DNA of 64,000 bases, taken from positions 16,750,759 through 16,814,758 of the forward strand of contig OY783204.1 of NCBI GenBank assembly GCA_963678705.1, given 5' to 3'. Shown here in pieces: positions 25,822 to 62,627 of this stretch. A model generated the notes under the pieces. That model ran no database searches, was not told the origin of the DNA, and worked only from the letters and a program-made list of their open reading frames with translations. Made by a program: the position numbers and the translations under genes. The stretch comes from Panorpa germanica. Lineage: Eukaryota > Arthropoda > Insecta > Mecoptera > Panorpidae. Position 1 is the stretch's first letter. Each line of letters opens with the position of its first letter.

Positions 25822-28800
25822 ATGCCGAGGAGAAGACGACCTAACTTAGGTCGTCGTAGTCAATCAAATGTGCGAAGAGCTACCTCACGTGCTAACCGCA
25901 CTGATGACCAGAGACAGACAGATCAAGAAAATAGTCGTATTGCTATGTCAGAATTGCGTTCTTTGGTGAGTGACAATGTAGGAGATAGGCTTAGAATGCA
26001 ACGAGTTCGTGCACATCAAACACAACAACAGCAAGCTAGACATAATGAAATTGAGCGAATCCGCAGACGCAGTGCTCCTGTGATTCTTGAACGAGCTGCA
26101 TTCCACTATGATCCGGCAATTGATTATTGTGCCGACAAATCGGTAACAATTGGGGAAATGAAAACAATTTGTAAATATTGTAAGGCGTTAAAATACACTG
26201 GTGAATCTACTGGATTATGTTGTGCTGAAGGCAAAGTAAAATTGCCACAATTGGTCCCACCACCAGATCCTTTACGCTCTTTGGTTTCTGGGATTGGAAA
26301 TGATTCTAAGCACTTCTTGACCAACATTCAGAAATATAACAACTGTTTCCAGATGACATCATTCGGTGCTACACATATTATACAAGACAATTTCATGCCC
26401 ACTTTCAAGGTATTATATAAGAATATTTTTTTATATTATTCAAGTTTGTACTAAAATATATATATCGGAAATTATTAATGGACAAATTTTTAAAAATTAC
26501 AGATTCAAGGACAAATTTATCACTTACTGGGAACTCTGTTACCACTAACTGATGCAGATCATCAATTTTTACAAATTTATTTTATGGGCAATTCAGATGC
26601 GGAAATTAATAATCGTTGTGCTCACAATCCAACAGTGAAGAGAACCATTGTCCAACAATTACAAATATTTCTTCATCAGAATAACAATTTAGTAAACATG
26701 TTCAAAATAGCATTGGATCGGATGCCATCTGATAGCCATAATATTATTATTCGAGCTGACAAAACACCTGCCGGTGAACACACAAGGAGGTTCAATTCAC
26801 CTACCATTGATGAAGTGGCTGTTGTCATTGTGGGCGAAAATTTACAATCTAGAGATATTGTGCTTCATCGTCGGAATAGTGAGTTAAAACGTGTATCTGA
26901 AACACACAGGAGTTATGATGCACTACAATATCCTTTGATCTTCTGGCAAGGGGAAGATGGATACCATTTTAATATCAAAATGGTAAATCAAGTAACAGGT
27001 AAATGAATTGAACAAGATTAAATAATATTTTTAAATTCAATACATCTAAGTAACAATTTAAACATTTATCATTTTTGATCGCAGGTGCTGAAACCAACAA
27101 AAAAGTTAGTGCTATGAATTTCTATTCATACAGACTCATGATCCGTCAAGGTGAAGTAAATCATATTTTGATGTGTCAACGACTTTTTCATCAGTTTGCA
27201 GTTGACATGTATGTCAAAATTGAGACTGAACGATTGACATACATCCGTTTGAACCAACGACGGCTACGGTCAGAGGAATACATCCATCTCCGCGATGCTA
27301 TAAATGCTGATGGCAATGTGAATAATGTAGGAAGAATGACAATTTTGCCAGCTACTTATATAGGAAGCCCACGTCACATGCATGAATATGCTCAGGATGC
27401 TATGTCATATGTTAGGCATTATGGCCGCCCAGATTTATTTGTTACATTCACATGTAACCCAAAATGGTCCGAAATCGAGAAGGAATTACTACATAGCCAA
27501 ACACCAGTTGATAGACATGACATAACTGCCAGAGTTTTTAAACAAAAATTAAAATCTCTCATGAATTTTTTAATAAAGCATTGTGTGTATGGCCGAGTCC
27601 GTTGTTGGATGTACTCTGTAGAATGGCAAAAGCGTGGATTGCCACATGCGCACATTTTAGTCTGGTTAGTGGACAAAATAAGGCCAGATGAGATTGATTC
27701 TATAATTTCAGCTGAAATTCCAGATGAAATAGTTGACCCAAAATTGCATGCAGTAGTAACCAAACACATGATACATGGACCTTGCGGACATTTCAACTAC
27801 AATTCACCCTGTATGGTCGACGGTAGGTGTTCCAAACGATACCCAAGAGACCTGCTTGCTGAAACCATAACGGGAAATGATGGATACCCATTGTATCGTC
27901 GGCGATCAGTTGCGGACAGTGGGCGATCGGTAGTTGTGAAGGTAAGAGGACAAAATGTTGATGTAGACAATCGTTGGATTGTGCCATACTCGCCAATATT
28001 GTCCAAAGCTTTTGAGACTCACATCAATGTGGAATATTGTAATTCTGTGAAGTCGATAAAGTACATATGTAAATATGTTAATAAAGGTAGTGATATGGCT
28101 GTCTTCGGTGTAACCAATGCAAATGATGAAATATCACAGTACCAGATGGGTCGCTATGTAAGTAGCAACGAAGCTATTTGGCGTATCTTTTCATTTGCGA
28201 TCCATGAAAGACACCCTACAGTAGTCCATTTGGCAGTCCATTTAGAAAATGGTCAACGAGTTTATTTTAATGAATCTAACGCGGCAGACAGGGCGGCACA
28301 TCCACCGTCGACAACATTAACAAGTTTCTTCACAGTTTGTCAAACTGATGATTTTGCTCGCACTTTGCTGTATGCTGACATGCCACGCTATTACACATGG
28401 AACGCATCATCGAAATCGTTTCAGCGTCGAAAACAAGGAACACCAGTTGAAGGACATCCAAATGTATTTGCTTCAGATGCTCTGGGTCGCATCTACACAG
28501 TACATCCAAATAACGATGAATGTTATTATTTGCGGTTGTTGTTGGTGAATGTTCGTGGTCCGACATCGTTTAAACAACTGAGAACAGTTAATGGACAGCT
28601 GTGTGCGACTTACCGTGAGGCATGTCAACTATTACATTTACTTGAGAACGATTCGCACTGGGATGATACGCTCAAGGATTCCGTAATATCTTCGTCGCCG
28701 CATCAAATTCGTACATTGTTTGCGATTATCATATCGACATGTTTCCCCTCGAATCCAAAAGATTTGTGGGTTAAGTATAGAGATGACATGTCTGAGGATG

Positions 28801-30410
28801 TTTTGTATCGTGTGCGCCGTCAAACTTTGAATCCTACACTACAAATGACTGAAGAAATTTACAATGACACATTGATCATGATAGAAGATATGTGTTTATT
28901 GATGGCAAATAAAGTATTGTCGTGTTTGGGAATGACAGCACCCAATCGTCATATGCACGATGCATTAAACCACGAGTTGCAAAGAGAACATCAGTACGAC
29001 ATTGAAGCATTGGCCGAAACAGTTCGTACAAATGTTCCACAATTAAATCAACAACAAAGAATTGCGTACGACACTTTGATAGAAGCTGTGAACAGTGGAT
29101 CTGGTGGAATTTATTTCCTTGATGCTCCCGGAGGAACCGGAAAAACGTTTTTAATTTCATTGCTTTTGGCGAGGATCAGATCGCGAAATGATGTTGCTCT
29201 AGCGTTGGCTTCATCTGGAATAGCTGCAACTCTGCTCGAAGGCGGGCGAACTGCACATTCTGCCTTGAAATTACCACTAAACATGCAAATCACCGAAACA
29301 CCAATTTGCAACATCGCCAAAAATAGCGCAATGGCCAAGATCCTACAGGTATGCAAATTAATTGTTTGGGATGAATGCACAATGGCCCATAAGAGGTCAC
29401 TGGAGGCACTGGACAGAACGTTGAAAGATCTTCGTGACAACCAAAATATTTTCGGTGGGGCCATGATTCTGTTGTCAGGTGATTTTCGTCAGACTCTTCC
29501 AGTTATTCCCCGATCAACTGTTGCTGATGAACTAAATGCATGCCTAAAATCATCAAATTTGTGGCAGTACGTAAAGACACTCCACTTAACAACTAACATG
29601 CGAGTATTTTTGCAACAAGATGAAACTGCTAATGTGTTTGCGAAGCAGTTGTTAGACATTGGAAATAATAAAGTTGCAGTGGACACCTCGACCGGATTCA
29701 TCACATTACCTACAGATTTCTGTCACATCACAGACTCAAAAGTGGAGCTTATTCAGCGAGTTTTCCCAGATATAGCGCAAAAGTTCAATAACCATAATTG
29801 GCTGGGTGAACGAGCAATATTAGCAGCGAAAAATAATGATGTAGAGGATCTTAATGCGACCATTCAGAATTTTCTTCCAGGACAGTTGGTTTCCTTCAAA
29901 TCAGTCGACACCGTAATGAGCCAGGATGACGTAATCAACTATCCCACTGAGTTTTTAAATTCACTGGAATTGCCTGGATTACCACCTCACAATTTGCAGT
30001 TAAAAGTAGGATCAGTTGTCATCATGCTGCGTAACATTAATCAACCTCGACTATGCAATGGAACAAGACTGGCTGTGAAAAGACTGATGAATAACGTCAT
30101 TGAGGCGACAATCATAAAAGGAAAATACAAAGGAGAGGATGTCTTGATCCCGCGGATACCGATGATTCCAACGGACTTACCATTCGATTTTAAACGCTTA
30201 CAATTTCCAGTACGTCTGGCCTTTGCGATGACCATAAATAAATCGCAAGGACAGTCTTTAGAAGTTTGTGGAATCAACTTGGAGTTTCCCTGTTTCGCGC
30301 ATGGACAATTATACGTCGCGTGTTCGCGCGTCGGAAAACCGTCTTCTTTGTTTATTTACGCACCACAAAACAAAACAAAAAATATAGTTTATGAGAAAGC
30401 TTTAAATTAA
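25822..30410 (+). CDS. RepHel, Helitron HUH replication initiator fused to Pif1-type helicase, three exons
   Basis: Exons are 25822-26409, 26503-26998 and 27085-30410; the introns (93 and 86 bases) have GT...AG ends. Spliced length is exactly 1470 codons with no internal stop. Exon 1 has a Cys cluster (CKYCKA...CC), probably zinc-binding. The Rep domain in exon 3 has FVTFTCNPKW, the HUH motif PHAHIL (about 27640) and the two-tyrosine motif YICKYVNK (about 28061). The helicase domain has Walker A GGTGKT (about 29133), Walker B VWDEC, SGDFRQTLPV and, near the end, MTINKSQGQS and ACSRV. The protein nicks and unwinds one strand for rolling-circle transposition. Length is typical for the family. 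Confidence 0.92.
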
Positions 30411-30788: not shown

Positions 30789-30833
<45 letters not shown>

Positions 30834-30835
<2 letters not shown>

Positions 30836-31154
30836 TAGTATATAAAAGAGGGGACCTAACCCAAACTCAGATTTGATTGATTTGACACCAAAAATTTACC
30901 AAATTGTTATATATAACCAAATATTTTGAAAATATTAAATATTTATAAAAAATTGCAAAAATTGTTATATATAACCAAATATTTTAAAAATATTAAATAT
31001 TTTTTAAAAATTACAATAATTAATAACATTTATCAAAATATTGACATATATTTAGACTTCTAGAGAGTCTGCATTATAGTGCTCCAAAAGTGATAATATA
31101 TCATGTTTTACCATATTCACAAAATACTGAATAATTTTTTTTCTATTAAATGGA
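30834..31154. repeat. Left terminal inverted repeat of virus-like element
   Basis: It matches the reverse complement of 41150-41470 along its whole length with few differences. It holds two near-identical direct repeats (ATTGTTATATATAACCAAAT at about 30904 and 30962) and ends inside the start codon of the polymerase gene (ATGGA). It probably carries the promoter. Confidence 0.92.
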
Positions 31155-34100
31155 TTATATAAGAAACCAATTTCAAACTCAAACTATGATCCAATTAAAA
31201 CAATATTGTAGAGATAATAAAATTCGAGGAGTATCTCAGTTAAGAAAAGCACAATTAATTAATACAATAATGAGATATATTAATAATACTAGAACAGAAG
31301 AGTATATACCACCATTCCAAAATGTTGATATCCCATTTACAATAGAAAAACCATATTTACCCCCATTTCGAAGTATCAAAGAGGATGATGAAGATATATT
31401 TCCCAAACCAACAGATTTTGAAAAGAATTTAGAAAGGAAGAGATTGATTAAAGAATTAGAATTAAAACCAAATAGAGCGTTTAATGGAATAATAAGTGAT
31501 AAATATTTTATTTCAAAAAATAATGAAGATATTAATATACATTTTGAAGAAATTAGAAAACCATTAACGAATTATATAAAATTTCAAATTGAAAAATATA
31601 AATATTTAAAGTTTAAACTTTCTACTTTTATTGAGTATGTAGAATTAAATCAAGATGGAGAAGAAGTAAATACACATACAAATAAATTTAGTACTGACAT
31701 TATAGAAATTTCAAGTTATGTAAAAGATATTCATAAATTAATTAAAGTTATTGAAGATATAATTGACAATAAATTTGATCAATGGACTGAAAAGAACTCT
31801 AAATATAGATTTAAACAAGTAAAATATTCTGTTTTATATAGAGATAAATTTCAACCAATAAAAGGTGGATCATATATTGATTTACCACAATATATTAAAA
31901 ATAAAAAATGTTGTATAAATGTAAAAAATATTAGAACTAGACAATTTAAGTGCAAGGAAATGGAAGATAATAGATGTTTTGAGTATGCTTTAGAAAGTAT
32001 ACTAAATCCAGTAGATAGACATAATGATAGACCATCAAAATATAATATAACAAGATATGAGGAATTAGAAATGGAATATCCCCTTGCTTTATCTCAAGAC
32101 ATTATTGAAAAATATGAACAATTTTTAAATATTTCAATTAATTTATATGAATTAATAAAAATGGGAATAGAAGAAGAAGAACAAATAATATTAGGCTATA
32201 GAAGTAAGAATATTTCTAATGATAAAACACATGTTAATTTATTAGTCCTTAGTGAATTGATTAATGATGATGGTGATTTAACTTATCATTTTGTTGGTAT
32301 AAAAAATTTAAGTAGTTTAATAAAAGGTAAAATTCATCATTGTAATATTCGTTTTTATATTTGTAATAAATGTAGTAAGAGATTTAAAACTGTTATACAA
32401 TATAATACTCATACAAAAATTTGTGGAATCTCAACTAGCAATATAATTATGCCAGCTGAAAAAACCTACAAATTATTTTATAAATCTAATGGAGCAGAAA
32501 TATATCACCCTTATTTTACAACATTAGATTTTGAATGTACATTATCTAAAGATTTTCCCTCAGATAAAATAAATAATAAAAAAATTATTTCTAAACACAT
32601 TCCAAATAGTTATTGTTTTACTACAAATGAAAAAACTATTTTGAGAAGAGAAAAAGACTCTAATATATTAATGAAAACATTTAATAACGATTTAACAGAT
32701 TTGGCAAAAAATTATTACAAAATAAAGAAAATAAATGAACCTATGAAATGGAATGAAGAAGATATAAAATTATTTGAATCACAAACAAATTGTCATATTT
32801 GTGGTAAAGATTTTGAAGGTCTTCCTTCTAATAAAGTTTGGGATCATGATCACATAACTGGTAAATTTAGAGGTGCCGCACATAAATCTTGTAATTTAAA
32901 TTTAAAATTACCCAATTTTGTACCCATTGGAATACATAATATAAAATATGATTCAAAAATATTTATTGAATGGATTTTAAAATTGAGCAAAGAAGCTGAA
33001 AATATTAAAATACTTGCTGATACAACTGAAAATTATAAATATTTATCAAAACGAGTTTTGGTAAATGAATATGAAACAAAACAAGATTCAATATATTGCT
33101 CAAATTGTAAAATATCAAGAAAAGGTGAAAACCTATTTGAAAAATGTACTAAATGTGAAGGTATAACAAAACTTGAAGTGTGTGGAGAAAATAAAATAAA
33201 ATGTTTAAAATGTCTAAATATCTATAAAACTGCTAAGCAACTCTGCGAATCAGAAACAGAATCTCTTATAGATCTCTCCGAAGGAGAATCTCTTATAAAA
33301 CTCTTTGAAGGAAAATCTCTTACAGAGCTCTTTGAAGAAGAATCTCCTATAGAATGTAAAAATGATAGTTGCACATATAAATGGGAAAAACTTAGAATAA
33401 CACCAAAAGGAACAATAATACAAAGTTTTATGGAAATAAGATTTATTGATACATTAGCATTTATGGGTGTTTCATTAGATAAAGCAATTAAAAATTTATT
33501 AAATATTAACTCTGGATATTGTTATAAATGTAAGAAACAACGAGAATTAAAAAATCCTATACTGCTTTGCAAGACTCCAGAGGCTCCAGAGACTCCAGAG
33601 ACCCCAAATGCTTCAAAAAGCAATATAATAGCATATGATGATTGTGAATATTGTAATACTAAAATTGAAAAAATATGTGATTATAGTTCTTTTAAATATT
33701 TTAATGAAAGATATAAAAATTATTCATTAGAAGGAAAAGCTTTCTTATTACAAAAAGGAGTTTATCCATATGAATGGGTTGATGATTATAAAAAGTTCGA
33801 TGCATTAAATTTACCAGATATTAAAGAATTTTATTCCAATTTAAATTGTAAAACAATAACTGATAAACAATATAAATTTGCCAAAGACTTTTGGAAACAT
33901 TTTAATATTGATACTTTTGGTGAATATCATGATAGATATTTAAGATTAGATAGTATATTATTATATGATGTATTTAATAATTTTAGAGATATGTGTTATA
34001 AGGAATATCAATTAGATCCAGTTTATTTTATGAGTGCTCCACATTTAGCTAACTCAGCTTCATTAAAATATACCAAACAAACATTAGAATTATATCAAGA

Positions 34101-35583
34101 TCAAGAAATGTATGAATTTACTGAAAAAGGTATTCGCGGTGGAATTAGTATGATATCAAATAATTATGCTTTATCAAATAATTGTTATTTCTATGATGAA
34201 AAGTATGAGAAAGTTATCAAATTATCAAAAGAAAAAGCTGAAGAAAAGGGTATATATAATTCAAAAAAAAATTTAAGTTATATAATGTATTTAGATGCTA
34301 ATAATTTATATGGTTGGGCAATGTCTCAAAAACTACCAGTATCTAATCATGAATGGCTGTCAAACGAAGAAATTCAAGATTTAAAAAAAAATAAAAATAT
34401 AATGAGCATCGATGATGAGGGGGACATAGGATATATATTAGATGTTAATTTAGGAATTCCAAAAGAATTACATGATAAATTTGATGATTATGCATTAGCT
34501 CCAGAACACTATTCTCCAAAATATGATGAATTATCAGAATATCAAAAACAAATGATTGATATTGGATTAGGATCAAAACCATCAAAAGAGAATAAAAAAT
34601 TAATGTGCACATTATACAATAAAAAAAATTATATTATAGATTATAGAATATTAAAAGAATATATAAGACAAGGTGCTAAATTATTTAATATTAATAAAGG
34701 TATTAAATATATACAAAAAGCTTGGTTAAAACCATATATTGATAAAAATACTAAATTACGACAAAATGCTAAAAATGATTTTGAAAAAGATTTCTTTAAA
34801 TTAATGAATAATAGTGTATATGGAAAACAAATGGAAAACGTTAGAAATAGATTAAATGTAAAATTAATTAAATCTGAAGAAGCTATGCAAAAAATGATAA
34901 ATTCAAATCATTATCAAGATAGAAGTATATTAAATGAAGATACTGTCCTCATGTATGGAAAAAAAGTTTATGTTAAATTAAATAAACCTATATTTGGTGG
35001 ATTTACTATACTTGAACTATCAAAATTATTAATGTATAAATTTTATTATAACTATTTAAAACCTAAATATGGTGATAAAGTTAAACTATTAAGCACTGAC
35101 ACAGATTCCTTTATCATACATGTAGAAACAGACGATTTTTATGAAGATATAAAAAATAATATTGAATATTTTGATACAAGTGATTATCCAGATGAACATC
35201 CTAATAATATACCTCAAAAAAATAAAAAAATTCCAGGATTATTTAAAGATGAATATAATGGTATTCCAATTAGAGAATATTGTGGATTACGATCAAAAAT
35301 GTATGCGTTTAGAACTGATAATCATGAGAAGAAAATATGTAAAGGAATTAAAAAAGTTAATATTATGAAAATGACATTTGATAAATATAAAGATTGTCTA
35401 TTTGAACAAAAAAGGACAATTGAATCTAGTTATAGTATAAGATCATTTAAGCTACAATTATATACTATTCAAGAAGAAAAAATTGGATTAAGTCCTTATG
35501 ATGATAAAAAATATTTAATTGATAAATTTAATAGACTATCATATGGTCATAAAAATATTGATGAATTTTTCTATAATAAATGA
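31150..35583 (+). CDS. Protein-primed family B DNA polymerase with N-terminal accessory domains
   Basis: 1477 residues from an ATG inside the left TIR. Residues about 10-45 look like a SAP-type DNA-binding helix pair. A Cys/His finger lies near 411-431 (CNKCSKRF...H...C). The exonuclease has LDFE (Asp460) and HNIKYD (about 597). Between these, at about 548-580, is an HNH/endonuclease VII-like module: CHICGKDFEG, DHDHITGKFRGAAH. A large Cys-rich insert, carrying three 27-bp tandem repeats (33261-33341), precedes the third exonuclease block YLRLDSILLYD. Polymerase motifs are LDANNLYGW (Asp1049), KLMNNSVYGK (about 1217) and STDTDSF (Asp1317, Asp1319). This enzyme would replicate a linear genome from a terminal protein. 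No frameshift is seen. Confidence 0.92.
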   Translation: MDYIRNQFQTQTMIQLKQYCRDNKIRGVSQLRKAQLINTIMRYINNTRTEEYIPPFQNVDIPFTIEKPYLPPFRSIKEDDEDIFPKPTDFEKNLERKRLIKELELKPNRAFNGIISDKYFISKNNEDINIHFEEIRKPLTNYIKFQIEKYKYLKFKLSTFIEYVELNQDGEEVNTHTNKFSTDIIEISSYVKDIHKLIKVIEDIIDNKFDQWTEKNSKYRFKQVKYSVLYRDKFQPIKGGSYIDLPQYIKNKKCCINVKNIRTRQFKCKEMEDNRCFEYALESILNPVDRHNDRPSKYNITRYEELEMEYPLALSQDIIEKYEQFLNISINLYELIKMGIEEEEQIILGYRSKNISNDKTHVNLLVLSELINDDGDLTYHFVGIKNLSSLIKGKIHHCNIRFYICNKCSKRFKTVIQYNTHTKICGISTSNIIMPAEKTYKLFYKSNGAEIYHPYFTTLDFECTLSKDFPSDKINNKKIISKHIPNSYCFTTNEKTILRREKDSNILMKTFNNDLTDLAKNYYKIKKINEPMKWNEEDIKLFESQTNCHICGKDFEGLPSNKVWDHDHITGKFRGAAHKSCNLNLKLPNFVPIGIHNIKYDSKIFIEWILKLSKEAENIKILADTTENYKYLSKRVLVNEYETKQDSIYCSNCKISRKGENLFEKCTKCEGITKLEVCGENKIKCLKCLNIYKTAKQLCESETESLIDLSEGESLIKLFEGKSLTELFEEESPIECKNDSCTYKWEKLRITPKGTIIQSFMEIRFIDTLAFMGVSLDKAIKNLLNINSGYCYKCKKQRELKNPILLCKTPEAPETPETPNASKSNIIAYDDCEYCNTKIEKICDYSSFKYFNERYKNYSLEGKAFLLQKGVYPYEWVDDYKKFDALNLPDIKEFYSNLNCKTITDKQYKFAKDFWKHFNIDTFGEYHDRYLRLDSILLYDVFNNFRDMCYKEYQLDPVYFMSAPHLANSASLKYTKQTLELYQDQEMYEFTEKGIRGGISMISNNYALSNNCYFYDEKYEKVIKLSKEKAEEKGIYNSKKNLSYIMYLDANNLYGWAMSQKLPVSNHEWLSNEEIQDLKKNKNIMSIDDEGDIGYILDVNLGIPKELHDKFDDYALAPEHYSPKYDELSEYQKQMIDIGLGSKPSKENKKLMCTLYNKKNYIIDYRILKEYIRQGAKLFNINKGIKYIQKAWLKPYIDKNTKLRQNAKNDFEKDFFKLMNNSVYGKQMENVRNRLNVKLIKSEEAMQKMINSNHYQDRSILNEDTVLMYGKKVYVKLNKPIFGGFTILELSKLLMYKFYYNYLKPKYGDKVKLLSTDTDSFIIHVETDDFYEDIKNNIEYFDTSDYPDEHPNNIPQKNKKIPGLFKDEYNGIPIREYCGLRSKMYAFRTDNHEKKICKGIKKVNIMKMTFDKYKDCLFEQKRTIESSYSIRSFKLQLYTIQEEKIGLSPYDDKKYLIDKFNRLSYGHKNIDEFFYNK
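33261..33341 (+). repeat. Three tandem 27-bp palindromic-repeat units inside the polymerase gene
   Basis: Units at 33261-33287, 33288-33314 and 33315-33341, with a partial fourth, translate in frame as SLIDLSEGE, SLIKLFEGK, SLTELFEEE and SPIE. The unit is related to repeats elsewhere in the element. Confidence 0.85.
33576..33602 (+). repeat. 9-bp tandem repeat in polymerase gene
   Basis: CTCCAGAGG/CTCCAGAGA/CTCCAGAGA encodes a PE-A/T-PE run between two Cys clusters. The CTCCAGAG core resembles the arm of the dispersed palindrome. Confidence 0.7.
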
Positions 35584-35957
35584 ACGTCTCTCTTTCAGAG
35601 CTTTGTAAAACAGAATCCCTTTCAATGCTCTCCAAAATAGAATCTCTTTCAAAGCTCTCCAGAGAAGAATTAATAAACAAATTGAATAACATTAATAATC
35701 TTTATAATAATTTCATAAATTTGTTAGAGTTAGAATTAAATATACCATATCTCATTATGAATGCAAAAATGATAACATCAAAATATGGAGATAGAATAAT
35801 TTTAACTCTTGAAAATAAGAAGAAATTGAGTTTACCAGAAAAATATAATAAAATAATTGATAATCCAGATGATTTAAAATTATTGAAAATAATATACAAA
35901 GGTAAAACTATTATGAATGATAAATACGAAAAACATAACATTACTTTTAGTCAATAA
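35580..35957 (+). CDS. Small protein, possible OB-fold ssDNA-binding protein
   Basis: 125 residues; its ATG overlaps the polymerase stop (ATGA). The first ~30 residues are made almost entirely by three 27-bp repeat units (35588-35668): SLSELCKTE, SLSMLSKIE, SLSKLSREE. The rest has TSKYGDRIILTLENKKKLSL, LPEKY and a final IYKGK. In small proteins of related arthropod elements a tKYGxxIxxxL...LPxRY...YKG pattern is common, and I suspect an OB-fold ssDNA-binding role. That is inference by pattern memory. The position right after the polymerase is consistent with a replication function. Confidence 0.5.
   Translation: MNVSLSELCKTESLSMLSKIESLSKLSREELINKLNNINNLYNNFINLLELELNIPYLIMNAKMITSKYGDRIILTLENKKKLSLPEKYNKIIDNPDDLKLLKIIYKGKTIMNDKYEKHNITFSQ
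35588..35668 (+). repeat. Three tandem 27-bp palindromic-repeat units at the start of the 125-residue gene
   Basis: Units 35588-35614, 35615-35641 and 35642-35668 share the length and reading phase of those in the polymerase gene. A further unit occurs alone at 35984-36010, between genes. Confidence 0.85.
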
Positions 35958-36064
35958 AAAAAAATATTTTTTATAATAAATGAATCTCTTTCAGAGCTCT
36001 CCAAAGGAGATTATCTCCTCCAAAACATATATTGAAAAGGAACGATGCATTATTTTATTAATAA

Positions 36065-37576
36065 ATGGAAGGAGACATCTTAACCGTTTCCGAAGCTAAA
36101 AAAATAGATAAAATGCGAGATAAATTAATTAAAACATATAAAAAAGGATCTATACAAATCTCTGAGGAAAAAAAGAAAACGCTGTCACGATCGAAATCAC
36201 CTTCAGTGCGCTGTAAAACAGAATCAGATAAATTATTAGAAGCTCAAAAAGCAGATGAGATTAGAAATAAATTATATGAGAAATATAAAAAAATTGAATT
36301 ACAAAATTTAAAATATAAGACCACTAAAGAAAAAGAATATGCTCCATTATTATCAGCGCTTGGAAAAATAGATGAAGATATTATTAAAAGATCTGAAGGA
36401 GAAACTAAACAATTACAACCATATTTTACTATATCAGAACCTGTTACACCAAGTAAAAAAGAATTAACAGAACCTGTTACTCCAAGAAAGTTTGATTTTT
36501 CAAAAATAAAAATATATGGAACAAACGCATCAACATATTTGCAACTTAGTATGGATAAAGATTACAAGTTTGATAAAATATTTGGACCAAAATCTGTTAA
36601 TAACGAATTAAAAATAGGTAGTAGTAAAATGGAACTTGATAAAGATGATGGAATTACTATTGATGGTAAAAAAACCTATAATGGAACTGTTGGATTATGG
36701 TATTTACTAACTTATGGTGGTAAACCTGATCCACAATTTTTTACAAAAGATGACTATATAGCTTATAGAGATATTATAATAAATTCTAATGCTTTAAAAA
36801 ACAAAATTAATAAACCTCTTTCATCACCAACAATTAAATGGACTACAATGATAAAATATATACATGATTATATTAAAACAGGTATGAAACAAGATTTATA
36901 TTATGATACTCTTTCAGAGCGCTCCGAAGGAGATAGTAATTTTAAAGAAGAGAAAGAAGGTTCTGGTGTCTCTCAATGGAATGAATCTCCTTCGGATCGC
37001 TTTCAATGGAGAGAATACAATGATAATAAAATAGAAGTTCAATATATTTCAAATTTGAATCAATTAATAAATCGTTTACAATATATTAATGCACAAGAAA
37101 ATGCAGGTAATAATAATTTTCATAATGAAAAATTAGGAGTGTTAAAATTTTTTAATAATGAAATTGAAAAAATATTAGATACTCCAAAAGGGTGTGAATA
37201 TTTAATAAAAATTGCAACATCATTACCAAAGAAAATTATAAGAGGATCAGGTATACTAAATACAATTATAAATACCCTACCTTTTGAAATGCATCTACCA
37301 GGATATAATTATTGTGGTCCTGGTACTAAATTACATGATAGATTAGCAAGAGGTGATAAAGGAATTAATGGTTTAGACGAAGCTTGTAAAGAACATGATA
37401 TTGCTTATAGTGAAAATAAAGACTTGGAAAAGAGACATGAAGCTGATAAAGTTTTAGAACAGAAAGCTTGGAATAGAGTTAAGAGTTCTGATAGTAGTAT
37501 TGGTGAGAAAACAAATGCATGGCTTGTTACAACAGGAATGAAATTAAAACATAAAATTGGTTTTGGATTAGCATAA
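36065..37576 (+). CDS. Minor capsid-like protein with parvovirus-type phospholipase A2 domain
   Basis: 503 residues. The C-terminal part holds a phospholipase A2 signature: calcium loop YNYCGPGT with Cys417, then DEACKEHDIAY with the His444-Asp445 pair, and a second helix with E/H residues after it. In parvoviruses this domain sits at the VP1 N-terminus and opens endosomal membranes; a comparable domain is known in some midsize DNA viruses, which is why I call it minor capsid-like. The N-terminal half is Lys/Glu-rich and contains several palindromic-repeat units (36196-36222, about 36390, 36908-36933, about 36985-37012), all in the same reading phase. The start lies in the context AATAAATGG shared by most genes here. 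No break is visible. Confidence 0.82.
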   Translation: MEGDILTVSEAKKIDKMRDKLIKTYKKGSIQISEEKKKTLSRSKSPSVRCKTESDKLLEAQKADEIRNKLYEKYKKIELQNLKYKTTKEKEYAPLLSALGKIDEDIIKRSEGETKQLQPYFTISEPVTPSKKELTEPVTPRKFDFSKIKIYGTNASTYLQLSMDKDYKFDKIFGPKSVNNELKIGSSKMELDKDDGITIDGKKTYNGTVGLWYLLTYGGKPDPQFFTKDDYIAYRDIIINSNALKNKINKPLSSPTIKWTTMIKYIHDYIKTGMKQDLYYDTLSERSEGDSNFKEEKEGSGVSQWNESPSDRFQWREYNDNKIEVQYISNLNQLINRLQYINAQENAGNNNFHNEKLGVLKFFNNEIEKILDTPKGCEYLIKIATSLPKKIIRGSGILNTIINTLPFEMHLPGYNYCGPGTKLHDRLARGDKGINGLDEACKEHDIAYSENKDLEKRHEADKVLEQKAWNRVKSSDSSIGEKTNAWLVTTGMKLKHKIGFGLA

Positions 37577-37605
37577 AAAAGAGAGATACTTTATTTTAGT
37601 AATAA

Positions 37606-38019
37606 ATGGAAACATTCCAAACAAATTTAACAAAACATCAAACTAGTAATATTAATAAAGCCTATAAGGATAAAAAAGATATTTTAATTCACTTAAAATA
37701 TGATCAATTAATTAGTGGTGGTAAAAATAAAATATTATTAACAAAAAGATTATCAAATAGAATTAAGAAGGCAATAAAAGAGAAAACAGGTTGTAGAATA
37801 AAAATCTCCTTCGAGGCTCTGAAAAAAAATCATGAGGGTGGATTTCTTCCATTAGTATTTGCTGGATTAGCAGCTTTAGGATCATTAATTGGTGGAGCAT
37901 CTGCAATTACTAATTCAGTTATAAATAAATCAGCTAAAGATAAAGAACTAGAAGAACAAAAAAGACATGATTTAGCAATGGAGAAAAAAGGAAGTGGTTT
38001 AAAAAAAAAAAAGATTTAG
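37606..38019 (+). CDS. pX-like virion core or membrane-active peptide
   Basis: 137 residues. The basic N-terminal half is followed by a short Gly-Gly-started hydrophobic segment (GGFLPLVFAGLAALGSLIGG, about residues 77-96) and a basic tail ending KKKKI. The same pattern, a basic region then GGFLP plus an Ala/Leu/Gly helix, marks adenovirus pX and its adintovirus relatives. Such proteins are processed by the viral protease, whose gene is next. The ORF ends in a run of 12 A (38001-38012), after which the protease frame continues without an ATG. Confidence 0.68.
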   Translation: METFQTNLTKHQTSNINKAYKDKKDILIHLKYDQLISGGKNKILLTKRLSNRIKKAIKEKTGCRIKISFEALKKNHEGGFLPLVFAGLAALGSLIGGASAITNSVINKSAKDKELEEQKRHDLAMEKKGSGLKKKKI

Positions 38020-38041
38020 CGCTCCAAAGGAGTTACAGCCA

Positions 38042-38518
38042 TTGTCGAACATAGATATTGAAAATTTAGTTGAAAAATTAAAAATTAAAAATTTTAGAGG
38101 TGTGTTTATGAAAGATGAATTGCCTGATAAACCAAATAATATTGAATGTGGAATTATAAATTTACAAAATTCATATCAGATTGGAAGTCATTGGACTGCT
38201 TATTATAAAAAGAATAATAAAATATATTATTTTGATTCTTATGGTAACGCTAAACCACCTAAAGAATTAGTAAAGTATTTCTCACAACCTTCGGAGATAT
38301 TTTATAATGATACACGAATTCAACAATATAATGATCCACCAATTTGTGGACATCTCTGTTTATTTTACTTAAAGAACTTTCGGAGCCTTCAGAGCTCTCC
38401 AAAGCATAATCTCTTTCAGAGCTCTCCGATGGAGAATCTCCTTCGGAGCGATGCAAAGCATAATCTTTTTTATTCTAATAAATGGCCGAAGTTTTTGATA
38501 AATATAACAAATATTTAA
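38042..38518 (+). CDS. Adenain-like cysteine protease, start codon unclear
   Basis: A conserved C5-type protease core is visible. GSHWTAYY has the catalytic His50 (numbered from 38042), YYFDSYG has Asp65, and a Gln precedes the ICGHLC motif with Cys102. Family proteases mature capsid proteins. The domain seems to begin upstream of the first ATG (38108, in FRGVFMKDELP), since NIDIENLVEKL fits the family N-terminus. No ATG exists upstream in this frame; 38042 is a TTG. A frameshift on the A12 run from the pX-like ORF, a non-AUG start or splicing could supply it. The C-terminus after the catalytic Cys consists of palindromic-repeat units and overlaps the next gene by 37 bases. Confidence 0.75.
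   Translation: MSNIDIENLVEKLKIKNFRGVFMKDELPDKPNNIECGIINLQNSYQIGSHWTAYYKKNNKIYYFDSYGNAKPPKELVKYFSQPSEIFYNDTRIQQYNDPPICGHLCLFYLKNFRSLQSSPKHNLFQSSPMENLLRSDAKHNLFYSNKWPKFLINITNI
38376..38465 (+). repeat. Cluster of palindromic-repeat units between protease core and capsid gene
   Basis: Three consecutive, partly inverted units (for example CTTTCAGAGCTCTCC and TCTCCTTCGGAGCG) encode the protease tail in a third reading phase, different from the tandem arrays upstream. Confidence 0.8.
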
Positions 38519-39693
38519 TTCGTAATGAATACAAGAAATTTTATCCAAAATTTGATAGACGAGATATAAATAAAGAAAATGCAGCAATATCTTTTAAACT
38601 TGATTATAATAATAACTGTTTTCTAAATTTAAAAAATATTCATATTTATATTGAGGGAGAATATAAACAAACAGATGAAAAAAATTATGGTAATGAAACT
38701 GTAGTTAAATTAATAAATAATTTTGTAGCACATAAATTTAAAACCATTGAATATAAAAAACATAATTACAAAATTGATCTAATTGAAAATGTTGGAGTTG
38801 CAAGTACAATGAAGGGAGTAATTACAAAAACAAAAACTGATACAAATAATTTAAATACTGGATTTATTTCAAATTTTGAACATGGTGGTATTTTTACAGC
38901 ATTAGTACCTTTATCTGATTTAGGATTAGGAATATGTGATACTGATAATATAATTTGGGGTAGTGCTGATGAATTTATATTTACAATGAATCATGATAAT
39001 GATGCAATTTATAGAGCGAATGATGTTGCTGAGGGTAAAATTATAATTACTGATATTTATTTATATACTCCATTGCTTGAATATGATACTATTGGTTGTA
39101 CAATGTTACTTGATGAATTAAAAACTCTAAGTGAAGAAGGAAATTATATTTTGAATTATTATAGATGGCAATGTATTAAAATATTGAATGAGAGTATGTC
39201 TGGAAAATCATTAAAACTTGATATTACTACAGATTACAGAAGCCACAAACAACCGTTATTTGGAATATTCGCTTTCCAAGTAAATAAATCTAATAATCAA
39301 TTGAAAGATATGAGTGAGTTTAATCATAAATATGTTAAAAATTATTATTTCACTATTAATGGAAATAGATATCCAGAAGAAAGTCAAAATTTAGATTTTG
39401 ATAAAGATAAATATAATATTGCATATATGACATATCAGTCTTATAAAAAAATATTTTCTATAACAGATAAAAATATGTTCTATGATATAAAAAGTTATAA
39501 AGAACTTGGACCTGTTTATTTAGTTGATTTAACTTGTCAACCAACAGATACAGAAATTTCAAATAAAACAATATTTTTACATGTTGATCTTGATAAGAAA
39601 GTTGAAAATGATACTTGTTGTTATATTATGTTGTTATCTCATATTAAAAATAAATTTGATATGGTTTTAAATAAATTTGAGGAGACTATTTAA
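38482..39693 (+). CDS. Candidate double-jelly-roll major capsid (hexon-like) protein
   Basis: 403 residues, strongly beta-type composition. I recognise the pattern of a capsid-like family common beside PolB genes in arthropod genomes. An early segment is IHIYIEGEYK, then KLINNFVAHKFKTIEYK and NVGVASTMKG, a middle block (LVPLSDLGLGICDTDNIIWG), and a later one with FGIFAFQVNKSN. Toward the end, FTINGNRYPEE with LDFDKDKYN precedes YLVDLT. The assignment to double jelly roll rests on family memory and gene order; no structure prediction was possible here. ATG lies in TAATAAATGG. The stop at 39691-39693 is followed, in the same phase, by a further open stretch that holds the hemopexin-like ORF. 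Confidence 0.65.
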   Translation: MAEVFDKYNKYLIRNEYKKFYPKFDRRDINKENAAISFKLDYNNNCFLNLKNIHIYIEGEYKQTDEKNYGNETVVKLINNFVAHKFKTIEYKKHNYKIDLIENVGVASTMKGVITKTKTDTNNLNTGFISNFEHGGIFTALVPLSDLGLGICDTDNIIWGSADEFIFTMNHDNDAIYRANDVAEGKIIITDIYLYTPLLEYDTIGCTMLLDELKTLSEEGNYILNYYRWQCIKILNESMSGKSLKLDITTDYRSHKQPLFGIFAFQVNKSNNQLKDMSEFNHKYVKNYYFTINGNRYPEESQNLDFDKDKYNIAYMTYQSYKKIFSITDKNMFYDIKSYKELGPVYLVDLTCQPTDTEISNKTIFLHVDLDKKVENDTCCYIMLLSHIKNKFDMVLNKFEETI

Positions 39694-39828
39694 TATATAA
39701 GTGATATTTATATTTTACTTTTTATTTCTTTTACCAATATTTTCAACAAACGAGGTTATCCTAGTTTTGAAGTAAATAATAATTACAATGGAGTTCCTTT
39801 ACAAAGATTAGGCATTCCGCAAAATAAA

Positions 39829-40182
39829 ATGATTACAAGTATTTTTAACTCATATACTGGTCAAACATATGTTTTTTATGATAACCTTTATATAGAACTA
39901 AATGAGTGTTCGTTATCTCCAAAACGTCATGGTCTCTTATCAGACTTATTTCCGGGGATACCATTGAACGTTTCTAATGTATTTAGATATATAAATGGAC
40001 TATTATATTTTTTTCATAATAATAATTTTTATGAGTATAGTGAGTTTTCAAATTCATTAATTAGATCAGGTAAAAAAGACTTATCAATGTTTGATATACC
40101 CTGTCCAAATATGACAATTTTAGAACAGCTAAAAATTTTATTAAAGAAACTCGTACTACAAAATAGTTTTGAACTTAATTAA
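39829..40182 (+). CDS. Hemopexin-repeat protein of the virus-like element
   Basis: 117 residues from the ATG. The same frame is open from 39694 and adds about 45 residues that begin with a hydrophobic, signal-like stretch (DIYILLFISFTNIF). Two hemopexin-type blades are visible: ITSIFNSYTGQTYVFYDN...Y, then LFPGIPLNVSNVFRYINGLL, which runs on to YFFHNNNFYEYS. Each blade follows the usual pattern aF...G..YvF....y, with the PGIP turn. Hemopexin folds in matrix metalloproteases and vitronectin bind proteins or heme; here a role in attachment is only a guess. No ATG precedes the hydrophobic segment, so splicing, readthrough of the capsid stop or another start codon is needed if the segment is used. 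Confidence 0.65.
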   Translation: MITSIFNSYTGQTYVFYDNLYIELNECSLSPKRHGLLSDLFPGIPLNVSNVFRYINGLLYFFHNNNFYEYSEFSNSLIRSGKKDLSMFDIPCPNMTILEQLKILLKKLVLQNSFELN

Positions 40183-40827
40183 TATGTTGAGCATGCGTTC
40201 GAATCCCACATGTGACAAATCTTTTTTTTTATTTCTCTTTCAGAGTTTTGCATATAATAATTAATAATAGATGGTGACACTAATTAACGAAATCTCATTT
40301 GTATGGAATGATTCACGTCTTAGCTCTCAGTAGTATTGTACACTGTAATTGTGGACTATATATACAAGTTTTAATTTTTCATATGTTGGGATAACTATGA
40401 TATTATGGTTTTGAGCATGCGTTTTATAAGAGGTGCACATCTTATATTAGTGCAGATCAAAGTCAGTATCATTGGTAGACTGGTCGTATTAAATCTCAAA
40501 AGTATCTTATGATATTGATTTCTTCTCTTATTATTTATATGTAAAAATCTGATTTGTTGTGTTCTGAAGGAGATGATTCATTGTATCTGCTTAGCAGTGC
40601 TCCAAAGGAGTATTACAAAGCCGAATTAAAGACTCGACGTCTGTAAAAAGATGTAAATGTCGTGATGGCGTAAACTCAATAGAACGAATTCTAATAAACT
40701 GGATAGTATGTTCGTGAAAGAGTTTGAGTAAATACATTGAATCTCCTTCGTAATACTGTGAAGACAGATTTGTGTATAAATAATTGATTAGTAAAGTAAC
40801 ATAAGATACTTTTGCTCTTTTTTTAAA
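40183..40827. other. Noncoding stretch of the virus-like element
   Basis: No gene is seen. It has a B-box-like GTTCGAATCC at 40199-40208, followed by a run of ten T at 40221-40230. A near-perfect 20-base palindrome lies at 40426-40445. Palindromic-repeat pieces occur at about 40233, 40563-40612 and 40741. Confidence 0.55.
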
Positions 40828-41154
40828 TTAATTTTTAACACATTCTTTACAAGTATAAGAATATCCTAATGCATCACTTTGATTTTTATTAAATTCTTCA
40901 TATGGTTTTTCAATTTGACAAGAAGAACATTTTCTAGCTTTATTAAGTCTTAATCGATGATAATTTGTCTTTAAATGTTTTTTATGAAAATATTTTGAAA
41001 TTATTTTACCACATTCACAAAAAATAGTTTGTTTTTTATAATTTAAATCACAATTTTTACATATATTACTTAAATTATCTTTTTTACTTTTATTTGAATA
41101 AAAATTATCCAAAGATAAGGTTTGTTTACATGTTGAGCATTTTCTATTTTCCAT
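40828..41154 (-). CDS. Cys-rich putative zinc-binding protein at the right end
   Basis: 108 residues with an ATG inside the right TIR. Two similar modules flank the middle: CSTCKQTLSLDNFYSNK...CKNC and CSSCQIEKPYEEFNKNQ...CKEC. A CECG...H...H motif lies between them. CxxC-(FY)-CxxC modules of this kind occur in viral and phage HNH endonucleases and transcription-factor-like proteins, but I see no catalytic HNH residues. It is transcribed toward the other genes and its upstream region is the same TIR sequence as for the polymerase. Function unknown; DNA or RNA binding is likely. Confidence 0.65.
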   Translation of the reverse strand: MENRKCSTCKQTLSLDNFYSNKSKKDNLSNICKNCDLNYKKQTIFCECGKIISKYFHKKHLKTNYHRLRLNKARKCSSCQIEKPYEEFNKNQSDALGYSYTCKECVKN

Positions 41155-41470
41155 TTAATAGAAAAAAAATTATTCAGTATTTTGTGAATATGGTAAAATA
41201 TGATATATTATCACTTTTGGAGCACTATAATGCAGAATCTCTAGAAGTCTAAATATATGTCAATATTTTGATAAATATTATTAATTATTGTAATTTTTAA
41301 AAAATATTTAATATTTTTAAAATATTTGGTTATATATAACAATTTTTGCAATTTTTTATAAATATTTAATATTTTCAAAATATTTGGTTATATATAACAA
41401 TTTGGTAAATTTTAGGTGTCAAATCAATCAAATCTGAGTTTGGGTTAGGTCCCCTCTTTTATATACTACT
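41150..41470. repeat. Right terminal inverted repeat of virus-like element
   Basis: Reverse complement of 30834-31154; it ends in the start codon of the minus-strand gene. Outside it lies a short (TA)n, then the left end of bZIP element copy 2. Confidence 0.92.
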
Positions 41471-41827
41471 TATATATATATATAAACACGCGTTCTTATG
41501 CGTATTTCATATAAACGGTGGAACATTTTGACAACTACGAACATTATAATAGGTAGATTGTTTTTTTTAATTTGTATAATATTAAAAAGTTGACTGAGAT
41601 ATGATTACTTAAATTAGAAATTTGGAGTTTCATCTTTTTTACTTCATATGCAGAGTACAGATAAATTCATTGTTTTTATATCTATTTTCTGTTCTTTATA
41701 TATATACATAAATATATCATTTTACTAGAGCAATTTTTGGAAAATAGCCTGTTAGTGAAAATCATTCTACAGAGAGGCAAAAATAAAAATAGAAAATGTA
41801 GAGACCCTCCCTCCATACATTATAGAC

Positions 41828-61875: not shown

Positions 61876-62627
61876 AATCCAATGGTTCAATCACAACATA
61901 ATAATGTGTCGTGAGGTAAAAGTGACGAGTGTCAAAGAAGAGATCATTGACTAATGACGATCATTGATCATTGCCATATACTCTTAAGAGTAGGTTTATT
62001 TTTCAAAAAGCAGTAAAACAGATTGCAAAAAGTTGTATATTAGTTTGCATAACAGTTAACTTTGATTATGTTAAATACACGTGACTGTGCTTAGCAGCCT
62101 ATTTGGTTAACACATAAATAACATAATTTGTAATATAGATTCTTCCCATCCGCACAGTAATGCTAACCATAACTACAAACCTACATACCAACGCTCGTTC
62201 CTTAATTCAAAAAGCTGACGACATCTCCAAAACCTAAGATCAACAAGTTTATTATTTTGGTCATATAGTTTTTAAGATTGCTTAAAAGTTAAGTTATTGT
62301 ACAATATTTTTCCCTCAACACTCTTAATACACGAAAACCAAAAAATTCATGGTCACTTTCGGATCATGCGCGAACTTTTCATTATAAATCAATACTGGGA
62401 GTCGCGGTGCGTCGGTGATGCCCCGTTCAACAGATGGATGACTCGGCAACAGCAACAGGTGTTTGGACGCAGGTCTAACACGAGCCGTCAAAGGGATGCA
62501 GGATGACGAGACGATGGTACAGTAGAATTATCGGAAGTACACAAGCAGAACTAATTGCTGATGTAACCCGCCCACGATAAAAAATGACGTTTAACAGGGA
62601 TTAACACGTAACATCTGTCACTGATAT
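61876..62627. other. Intergenic sequence
   Basis: No gene or repeat partner was recognised. A slightly GC-richer patch (62395-62520) gives a 69-codon ORF without recognisable motifs. Confidence 0.4.

Follow-up and report, generated by a model that had tools for sequence, protein, structure and literature searches.

Double-hairpin repeat units within the genes of an adintovirus/Maverick-like element of Panorpa germanica

The stretch analyzed here, referred to as the window, comprises 64,000 nucleotides (nt) of contig OY783204.1 of Panorpa germanica (assembly GCA_963678705.1, positions 16,750,759 to 16,814,758) and contains an adintovirus/Maverick-like provirus of 10.7 kb. A unit of 27 nt is repeated throughout this element and inside its genes; a sequence-only reading of the window had described it as a single palindrome of about 27 bp. 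Two adjacent small hairpins are a better description of the unit, and whole units are present or absent at two homologous sites in sister copies of the element. The ends, genes, and open reading frames (ORFs) of the provirus are given below in window coordinates, with protein lengths in amino acids (aa).

30820–41484, no strand assigned: adintovirus/Maverick-like provirus, internally deleted copy (terminal inverted repeats, TIRs; Pfam matches; 3.24 kb shorter than sister copy L023)
30820–31162, plus strand: left TIR (inverted-repeat search; 343 bp, 98% complementary to the right one)
31150–35583, plus strand: PolB gene, 1477 aa, with an Endonuclease VII domain (Pfam, alignment of relatives)
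35580–35957, plus strand: 125-aa ORF with units immediately 3' of the start codon
36065–37576, plus strand: 503-aa protein with a phospholipase A2-like (PLA2) domain (Pfam)
37606–38019, plus strand: 137-aa ORF, with a second-type hairpin insert of 0, 36, or 63 bp in sister copies
38042–38518, plus strand: adenain-like protease ORF (Peptidase_C5, E-value 3.8e-4, 20.6 bits, cut-off 21.3)
38482–39693, plus strand: double jelly-roll major capsid protein (PF21738, E 3.7e-29; genome copies)
41142–41484, minus strand: right TIR (inverted-repeat search; 343 bp)

The element has the features of adintoviruses and Mavericks, namely PolB, capsid, TIRs, and integrase, the last of these in the sister copy L023 (rve, E 2.7e-10). 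PolB is of the Maverick kind, with 48–51% identity to the four closest relatives listed over 64–71% of the query region. Compared with L023, the window copy has lost 3.24 kb at window 35958–36064, and with it the integrase, ATPase-like, and 332-aa ORFs; the packaging ATPase of L023 is a candidate (Pox_A32 at 16.5 bits, cut-off 22.8). The junction of this deletion is a 7-nt microhomology, TTGAAAA, located outside any unit. Units are ruled out as breakpoints for that junction, and the proposal that the repeat acts as a recombination seed found no backing in this one deletion examined. The units and unit-like stretches are as follows.

31068–31093, plus strand: weak unit-like stretch in the left TIR (24.3 bits, E 0.006)
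33228–33255, plus strand: extra diverged unit in the PolB insert (structure model, E 0.0098)
33262–33342, plus strand: three tandem units within PolB, a stretch absent from 12/12 aligned relatives
35589–35669, plus strand: three tandem units in the 125-aa ORF; tract longer in 8/12 other partial copies
35985–36011, plus strand: unit at a small-ORF start, corresponding to the N-terminus of a 150-aa ORF in L023
36197–36223, plus strand: unit in the PLA2 gene; empty site in L017 and L060
36391–36402, plus strand: right half-unit
36908–36934, plus strand: unit in the PLA2 gene, present in 7/8 close copies (window counted), cleanly absent in L024
36986–37013, plus strand: unit in the PLA2 gene; tract varies among copies and is common to subfamily B too
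37805–37829, plus strand: doubtful unit in another frame (17.0 bits, E 0.26)
38018–38034, plus strand: half-unit 5' of the protease ORF; tract of 16 to 97 nt in 26 copies
38376–38463, plus strand: hypervariable unit tract encoding the protease tail (18 alleles, 30 loci)
40234–40260, plus strand: non-coding unit, almost invariant across 12 copies
40548–40573, no strand assigned: non-coding partial unit, invariant in 12/12 copies
40586–40612, plus strand: non-coding unit with a compensated stem, invariant in 12/12 copies
40742–40769, plus strand: non-coding unit, almost invariant across 12 copies
41211–41236, minus strand: equivalent weak unit-like stretch in the right TIR

With a 29-nt reference, a repeat finder recovered 15 copies sharing ≥65% identity; in three tandem runs (starting at 33258, 35585, and 38379), successive copies are spaced 27 nt apart. 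Half-sites with at most two mismatches occupy 20 six-base bins within the element, compared with an average of 1.0 for sequences simulated under a first-order Markov model (30 simulations). The left flank (30.8 kb) has 0 such bins and the right flank (22.5 kb) has 2. The units reported by the sequence-only reading, and their spread through the genes of a virus-like element (PolB, PLA2, protease, and the 125-aa ORF), were thus confirmed. Its unit at 37803 is present as a doubtful candidate, and the piece that it noted in the TIR lies in a stretch that is present but weak, which is possibly a seed of the unit. A structure model of the unit, scored with filters switched off and with a sequence-only model as comparison, recovers the units together with the extra one at 33228–33255. 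The same model gives a better-scoring match outside the element, at 61996–62023 on the minus strand (E 0.0043, GC content 0.21), which has an E-value of 0.06 with the comparison model and is taken as an AT-rich chance match.

Units are read in frame 0 (ESLSELSKG) and frame 1 (NLFQSSPKE), with a third frame at the doubtful 37805 unit, in agreement with the earlier remark that reading phases differ. In three common units, all three sense frames are open. An ordinary tandem minisatellite, which would be confined to tandem arrays, was rejected, since dispersed single units are found at 35985, 36197, 36908, 40234, and 40586.

Each half-site is a hairpin whose 4-bp stem encloses a loop of 3 nt, e.g., CTCT-TTC-AGAG or CTCC-AAA-GGAG, and altered stems remain paired (CTGC/GCAG, CTGT/ACAG, and ATGC/GCAT). 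Covariation was scored as the number of cells changed on both sides of a pair and compared with 500 shuffles. For the 21 units of the window, a set including partial and doubtful ones that count against structure, the double hairpin gives 18 two-sided cells, a value reached by 0 of 500 shuffles, and slid versions give at most 8. For the genome set, 15 window units were used to build a sequence-only model, which gave 235 matches in ten regions; 150 of these were aligned, yielding 52 distinct rows, some of which are the same DNA from the opposite strand. In these 52 units, the double hairpin gives 35 two-sided cells compared with 15.1 in shuffles (0/500), and slid versions give at most 12. The single 27-bp palindrome yields 8 two-sided cells against 13.0 shuffled in the window set and 9 against 15.4 in the genome set; it has no covariation in its favor and is ruled out. 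The unit consists of two adjacent small hairpins rather than one self-complementary 27-mer.

The host genome (464 Mb, 249 contigs) was scanned for further copies. Of 106 matches to the capsid gene, 61 span its full length at 96–100% identity (nine of these contain stops), 16 fall in a distant family at 27–29% identity, and the others are fragments or more degraded copies. Copies sit on many contigs, including the 30.6-Mb contig C1, and the lineage has apparently multiplied recently. The half-site TCTCCTTCGGAG has 407 exact matches in the genome, compared with 4 for the reversed control, and of the 100 listed out of these 407, 98 have a capsid or 125-aa match no more than 10 kb away. For the 18-nt core TCTCTTTCAGAGCKCTCC, there are 78 genome matches and 0 for the control; each of the 78 has a copy no more than 10 kb away and is on the coding strand of that copy. 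The motif is therefore not equally dense over the host, and the units are restricted to one element family, as far as the matches listed go. The statement that none occur outside the element holds for the surroundings of the window copy, but sister copies elsewhere in the genome carry units.

The distant second family differs in this respect. Two of its pieces, 11.5 kb in total, contain 0 half-sites at up to two mismatches, and their observed/expected hairpin counts are 7/8.6 and 4/5.2, compared with 40/10.8 in L023 and 28/10.2 in the window element. This second family comprises 16 copies (e.g., at C11:204797 and C1:3438417), in 13 of which the capsid match is stop-free. The unit-bearing elements fall into two subfamilies (subfamily B includes, e.g., L055–L060), in which the capsid side is near-identical and the PolB-side DNA (window 31150–36064) is unalignable. 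This pattern suggests that modules may have been exchanged between elements of the two subfamilies.

Copy-to-copy variation was measured at 30 loci, i.e., the best-scoring 30 of the 106 capsid matches, the window being one of them. The protease tail has 18 alleles in the 30 loci, with lengths of 24, 51, 60, 78, 87, and 105 nt in 8, 4, 11, 1, 4, and 2 loci, so that all gaps are multiples of 9, and the tail is free of in-frame stops in 29 of 30. The mean flank difference is 0.73% (p 0.0073, 435 pairs), compared with 7.7% between protease tails of the same length (p 0.077, 96 pairs), making the latter about tenfold more divergent. Indeed, 44 of the 50 pairs with at most three differences over 1459 flank nt have unlike tails. 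The units of the protease tail vary far more than their flanks, and on a tree of 1759 flank bases the tail changes in length at least 16 times, where 5 changes would be enough. The neighboring tract at 38019, parsed in 26 of the 30 loci, measures 16, 25, 43, 70, or 97 nt, and all 26 lengths are 7 modulo 9. An A-run at window 38000–38012, between the 137-aa ORF and the protease, has a length of 12, 10, and 13 in 16, 6, and 4 of 26 copies, respectively.

At the start of the 125-aa ORF, eleven of 13 partial copies differ from the window by 0, 63, 81, or 135 nt, and both L016 tandem copies are 175 nt off and out of frame. In subfamily B, this gene starts without a unit tract (two copies in DNA; 18 matches with a 96-aa open frame). 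Within the PLA2 gene, presence and absence of whole 27-nt units are seen directly at two sites. The 36197 unit was compared in 11 copies; 27 nt, located between AATCA repeats, are missing in L017 and in the subfamily B copy L060, and the unit is retained in the subfamily B copy L057. Other inserts occur there in L015, L019, L020, L021, and L024. At 36908, 27 nt are missing in L024 between GATA repeats, and three diverged copies are also without the unit. The 36986 tract differs by 9, 18, 24, 30, or 39 nt, and in L021 by 1 nt, which breaks the frame; in L020 the frame is broken near 36197, where an adjacent A-run has lost 1 nt. Tract length preserves the frame in 10 of 11 copies at 36197, 10 of 11 at 36986, and 11 of 13 at the 125-aa ORF. 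Nearly all of the measured coding tracts thus differ in length by multiples of 3, usually of 9.

A second-type hairpin repeat (AAGACAGGCCGAAGCCTATCACTCCTTTCTAAGGAG) occurs in the 137-aa ORF. Among 27 anchored copies, 12 are without it, 12 carry 63 bp, and 3 carry 36 bp, and the insert shows at least 8 changes on the flank tree, where 1 would be enough. The 36-bp insert is flanked by a GGAGAA direct repeat (6 bp). The copies examined for the AAGACAGGCCGAAGCCTATCACTCCTTTCTAAGGAG insert include L030, L036, L038, L046, and L052.

Clean 27-nt presence and absence with direct repeats (AATCA, 5 bp; GATA, 4 bp; and the 6-bp GGAGAA of the 36-bp second-type insert), together with dispersal across most genes and the non-coding parts, could also be produced by a mobile mini-element that an unknown or borrowed enzyme copies into new sites, duplicating a short piece of the target, as has been suggested for the GC clusters of mitochondria. 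However, these direct repeats are unequal in length and part of the unit's own linker, so that they may equally represent microhomology or slippage deletion. All 78 core matches have one orientation near the element, and a free element would be expected in host DNA, yet only 2 of the 100 listed half-sites are more than 10 kb from a copy. We consider a mobile unit unlikely.

The location of the units in variable protein linkers and termini, and the majority of length steps that preserve the frame, would likewise fit ordinary coding minisatellites, i.e., flexible Ser/Glu-rich linkers in which protein function is conserved and the hairpins are by-products. Such linkers would not explain why the unit is read in at least two frames and is also present in non-coding DNA, nor the stem covariation at the DNA level, and we regard this explanation as improbable.

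The non-coding units bear on another explanation, in which the hairpins serve as a conserved RNA or protein-binding signal acting per gene and are repeated and compensated for that reason. The paired stem changes, the sense orientation of all 78 core matches, and the invariant non-coding units close to the right end would be consistent with such a role. On the other hand, coexisting copies have widely unlike unit numbers, or none at a site; an Rfam scan of the element gave no family at its cut-off, and folding energies are unremarkable. A conserved signal is given very little probability. The unit at 40586–40612 and the TIR stretch at 31068–31093 have TCTGC and AGTGCTCCAAA in common at equal spacing.

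Relatives outside the host genome were represented by 240 listed matches, the best 120 of 1785 and the best 120 of 365, of which 32 were chosen for alignment. The PolB unit stretch at 33262 is absent from all 12 aligned relatives, the closest being 58% identical, and the PLA2 unit stretch at 36986 is absent from all 20 aligned relatives; fixed presence at the same sites in all relatives, as ordinary protein sequence, was not seen. The other PLA2 unit sites fall in linkers too variable to align. None of the 240 listed relatives contains any of the strict unit peptides ESLSEL, SLSELS, LFQSSP, SSP[KM]E, and [LR]S[KE]G[ED]. Looser unit peptides match 5, 1, and 1 proteins, and the one inspected, P0236, is native sequence. 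The relatives of the PLA2 protein include the Megastigmus wasp adintovirus PLA2X, and no protein-database homologue of the 125-aa protein was found at E ≤1 among 130 candidates.

Contigs from 84,980 bacterial and archaeal species were searched for the exact 26-nt pattern of the unit and gave no match. Occurrence of the unit in other viruses was rejected: four viral contigs match the 18-base pattern, with one isolated match each at GC 0.49–0.69, and are taken as chance. Scans with the capsid, a single-sequence PolB, and PLA2 found no relative. The related IMG/VR contigs L005 and L006 contain no half-site and one half-site at two mismatches, respectively, and have unrelated repeats of their own. 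These comprise a 57-nt tandem array in a long ORF, GC-rich palindromic repeats, and TATAGCAAAGCGTATA-like repeats (L005 4736–5365 and 15129–15378; several intergenic places in L006). In the open-licence literature, searched by titles and abstract beginnings, no report of hairpin repeats in Maverick or adintovirus genes was found. Two further observations concern the window. A 9-bp, GACTCCAGAG-like repeat occurs three times at 33560–33600, in another PolB loop missing from the aligned relatives, and a large ORF at 27075–30410 presumably resembles a Helitron Rep/helicase.

Protein-primed PolB replication involves single-stranded intermediates. We think it somewhat more probable than not that this is where the units change: in this apparently recently multiplied lineage, the differences between sisters in the presence, number, and sequence of the double-hairpin units would result from polymerase slippage and template switching at hairpins during replication. 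The single strand exposed in PolB replication would fold into hairpins, and the polymerase would slip or jump from unit to unit, the ends being joined by short matches such as AATCA and GATA, i.e., by microhomology. Such jumping could also restore stem pairing, a form of quasi-palindrome correction. Units would then persist where steps preserve the frame, and they may be tolerated because the common units are free of stops in all three sense frames and occupy variable linkers and termini. A comparable process has been discussed for Nematomorpha mitochondria, where template switching is named as a possible cause of the perfect arms of coding palindromes (PMC6649704).

Several observations weigh against replication slippage and template switching at hairpins, or against the structure on which it builds. 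In the window set, the number of pairs with any two-sided change is 6 compared with 4.8 in shuffles, a value reached by 121 of 500, and kinship among sequences can push scores past such shuffles without structure. The RNA folding check proposed by the sequence-only reading revealed no unusual stability, with z-scores of −1.73 to +0.94 over nine stretches. The PolB tract, though tandem, measures 146 nt in 10 of 10 partial copies, counting one that reads 147 through an anchor shift; therefore, tandem hairpins alone do not force instability. The non-coding units hardly vary either, with 4, 1, and 3 alleles at 40234, 40548–40612, and 40742, counted in the 12 of 30 loci having both anchors, and most of their allele differences are T-run or anchor shifts. 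Steps that are not multiples of 9 exist (24, 30, and 39 nt at 36986; 3, 12, and 15 at 36197), so that the 27-nt step is not universal; the multiple-of-9 rule is limited to the tract at 38019, the protease tail, and those tracts of the 125-aa ORF that stay in frame. The frame is broken in four copies, and choosing the best capsid matches over-represents intact copies. The homoplasy on the tree could stem from recombination, as the copies clearly exchange parts. Finally, neither replication intermediates nor changes in progress were seen, and the comparisons do not tell gains of units from losses.

Beyond slippage itself, the double-hairpin cassettes might serve as a built-in diversifier, slippage rewriting the linkers and tails of PLA2, the protease, and the 125-aa protein nearly always by whole codons. 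We hold this to be a speculative and quite unlikely extension. If true, it would give each daughter element slightly different viral proteins and would amount to reverse-transcriptase-free, frame-keeping protein diversification in an animal DNA virus. We also considered translational bypassing of the Magnusiomyces type, which is not needed because most tracts are in frame and 29 of 30 protease tails are stop-free.

Gene-invading small hairpin repeats are known from Rickettsia and organelles, and their manner of spread is unsettled. Dozens of near-identical copies in one genome constitute a natural mutation-accumulation experiment, in which near-unchanged flanks provide the background for reading presence, absence, and compensating changes in the stems, so that hairpin-driven spread becomes directly testable. 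Viral genes evidently tolerate, and perhaps exploit, largely frame-keeping hypervariable hairpin tracts.

The closest likeness in form is to known small-hairpin repeats. Fungal mitochondrial double-hairpin elements (DHE) and GC clusters are also short two-hairpin or GC-rich palindromic units, dispersed, variable in number, and bordered by direct repeats, such as the AG or ACT flanks of the GC42 cluster (PMC4478555). The present unit shares the two-hairpin form and the presence or absence at homologous sites (36197 and 36908), but its location is not mitochondrial. DHE and GC clusters are described from organelle DNA, the GC clusters being mostly intergenic, whereas the present units lie in a virus-like element, mostly in genes, and largely keep the frame. 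Repetitive hairpin-forming elements of sponge and placozoan mitochondria are likewise small-hairpin families multiplying within one lineage, but are mitochondrial and mainly described from intergenic regions (PMC2800124, PMC7813641). Nematomorpha mitochondrial palindromes are inverted repeats within coding genes; they are perfect and up to 284 bp (PMC6649704), unlike the 11-nt hairpins in 27-nt units found here.

Adintoviruses and Maverick-Polinton elements share the gene set and the terminal inverted repeats, but the aligned relatives are without units at the two alignable sites. Rickettsia palindromic elements are longer than the 27-nt unit. They too are in-frame palindromic repeats in coding genes, and the analogy drawn by the sequence-only reading is apt as a likeness, not as membership: those elements are bacterial, whereas the unit here is a 27-nt double hairpin, tandem and hypervariable, in a virus-like element of a 464-Mb host genome and not in Rickettsia or a related bacterial genome. 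According to Ogata (2000, 2002), as cited in PMC6649704, such palindromes reside in coding genes and the protein is not destroyed. Collectively, the repeat works like DHE and Rickettsia palindromic elements and belongs to neither, being set apart by its location.

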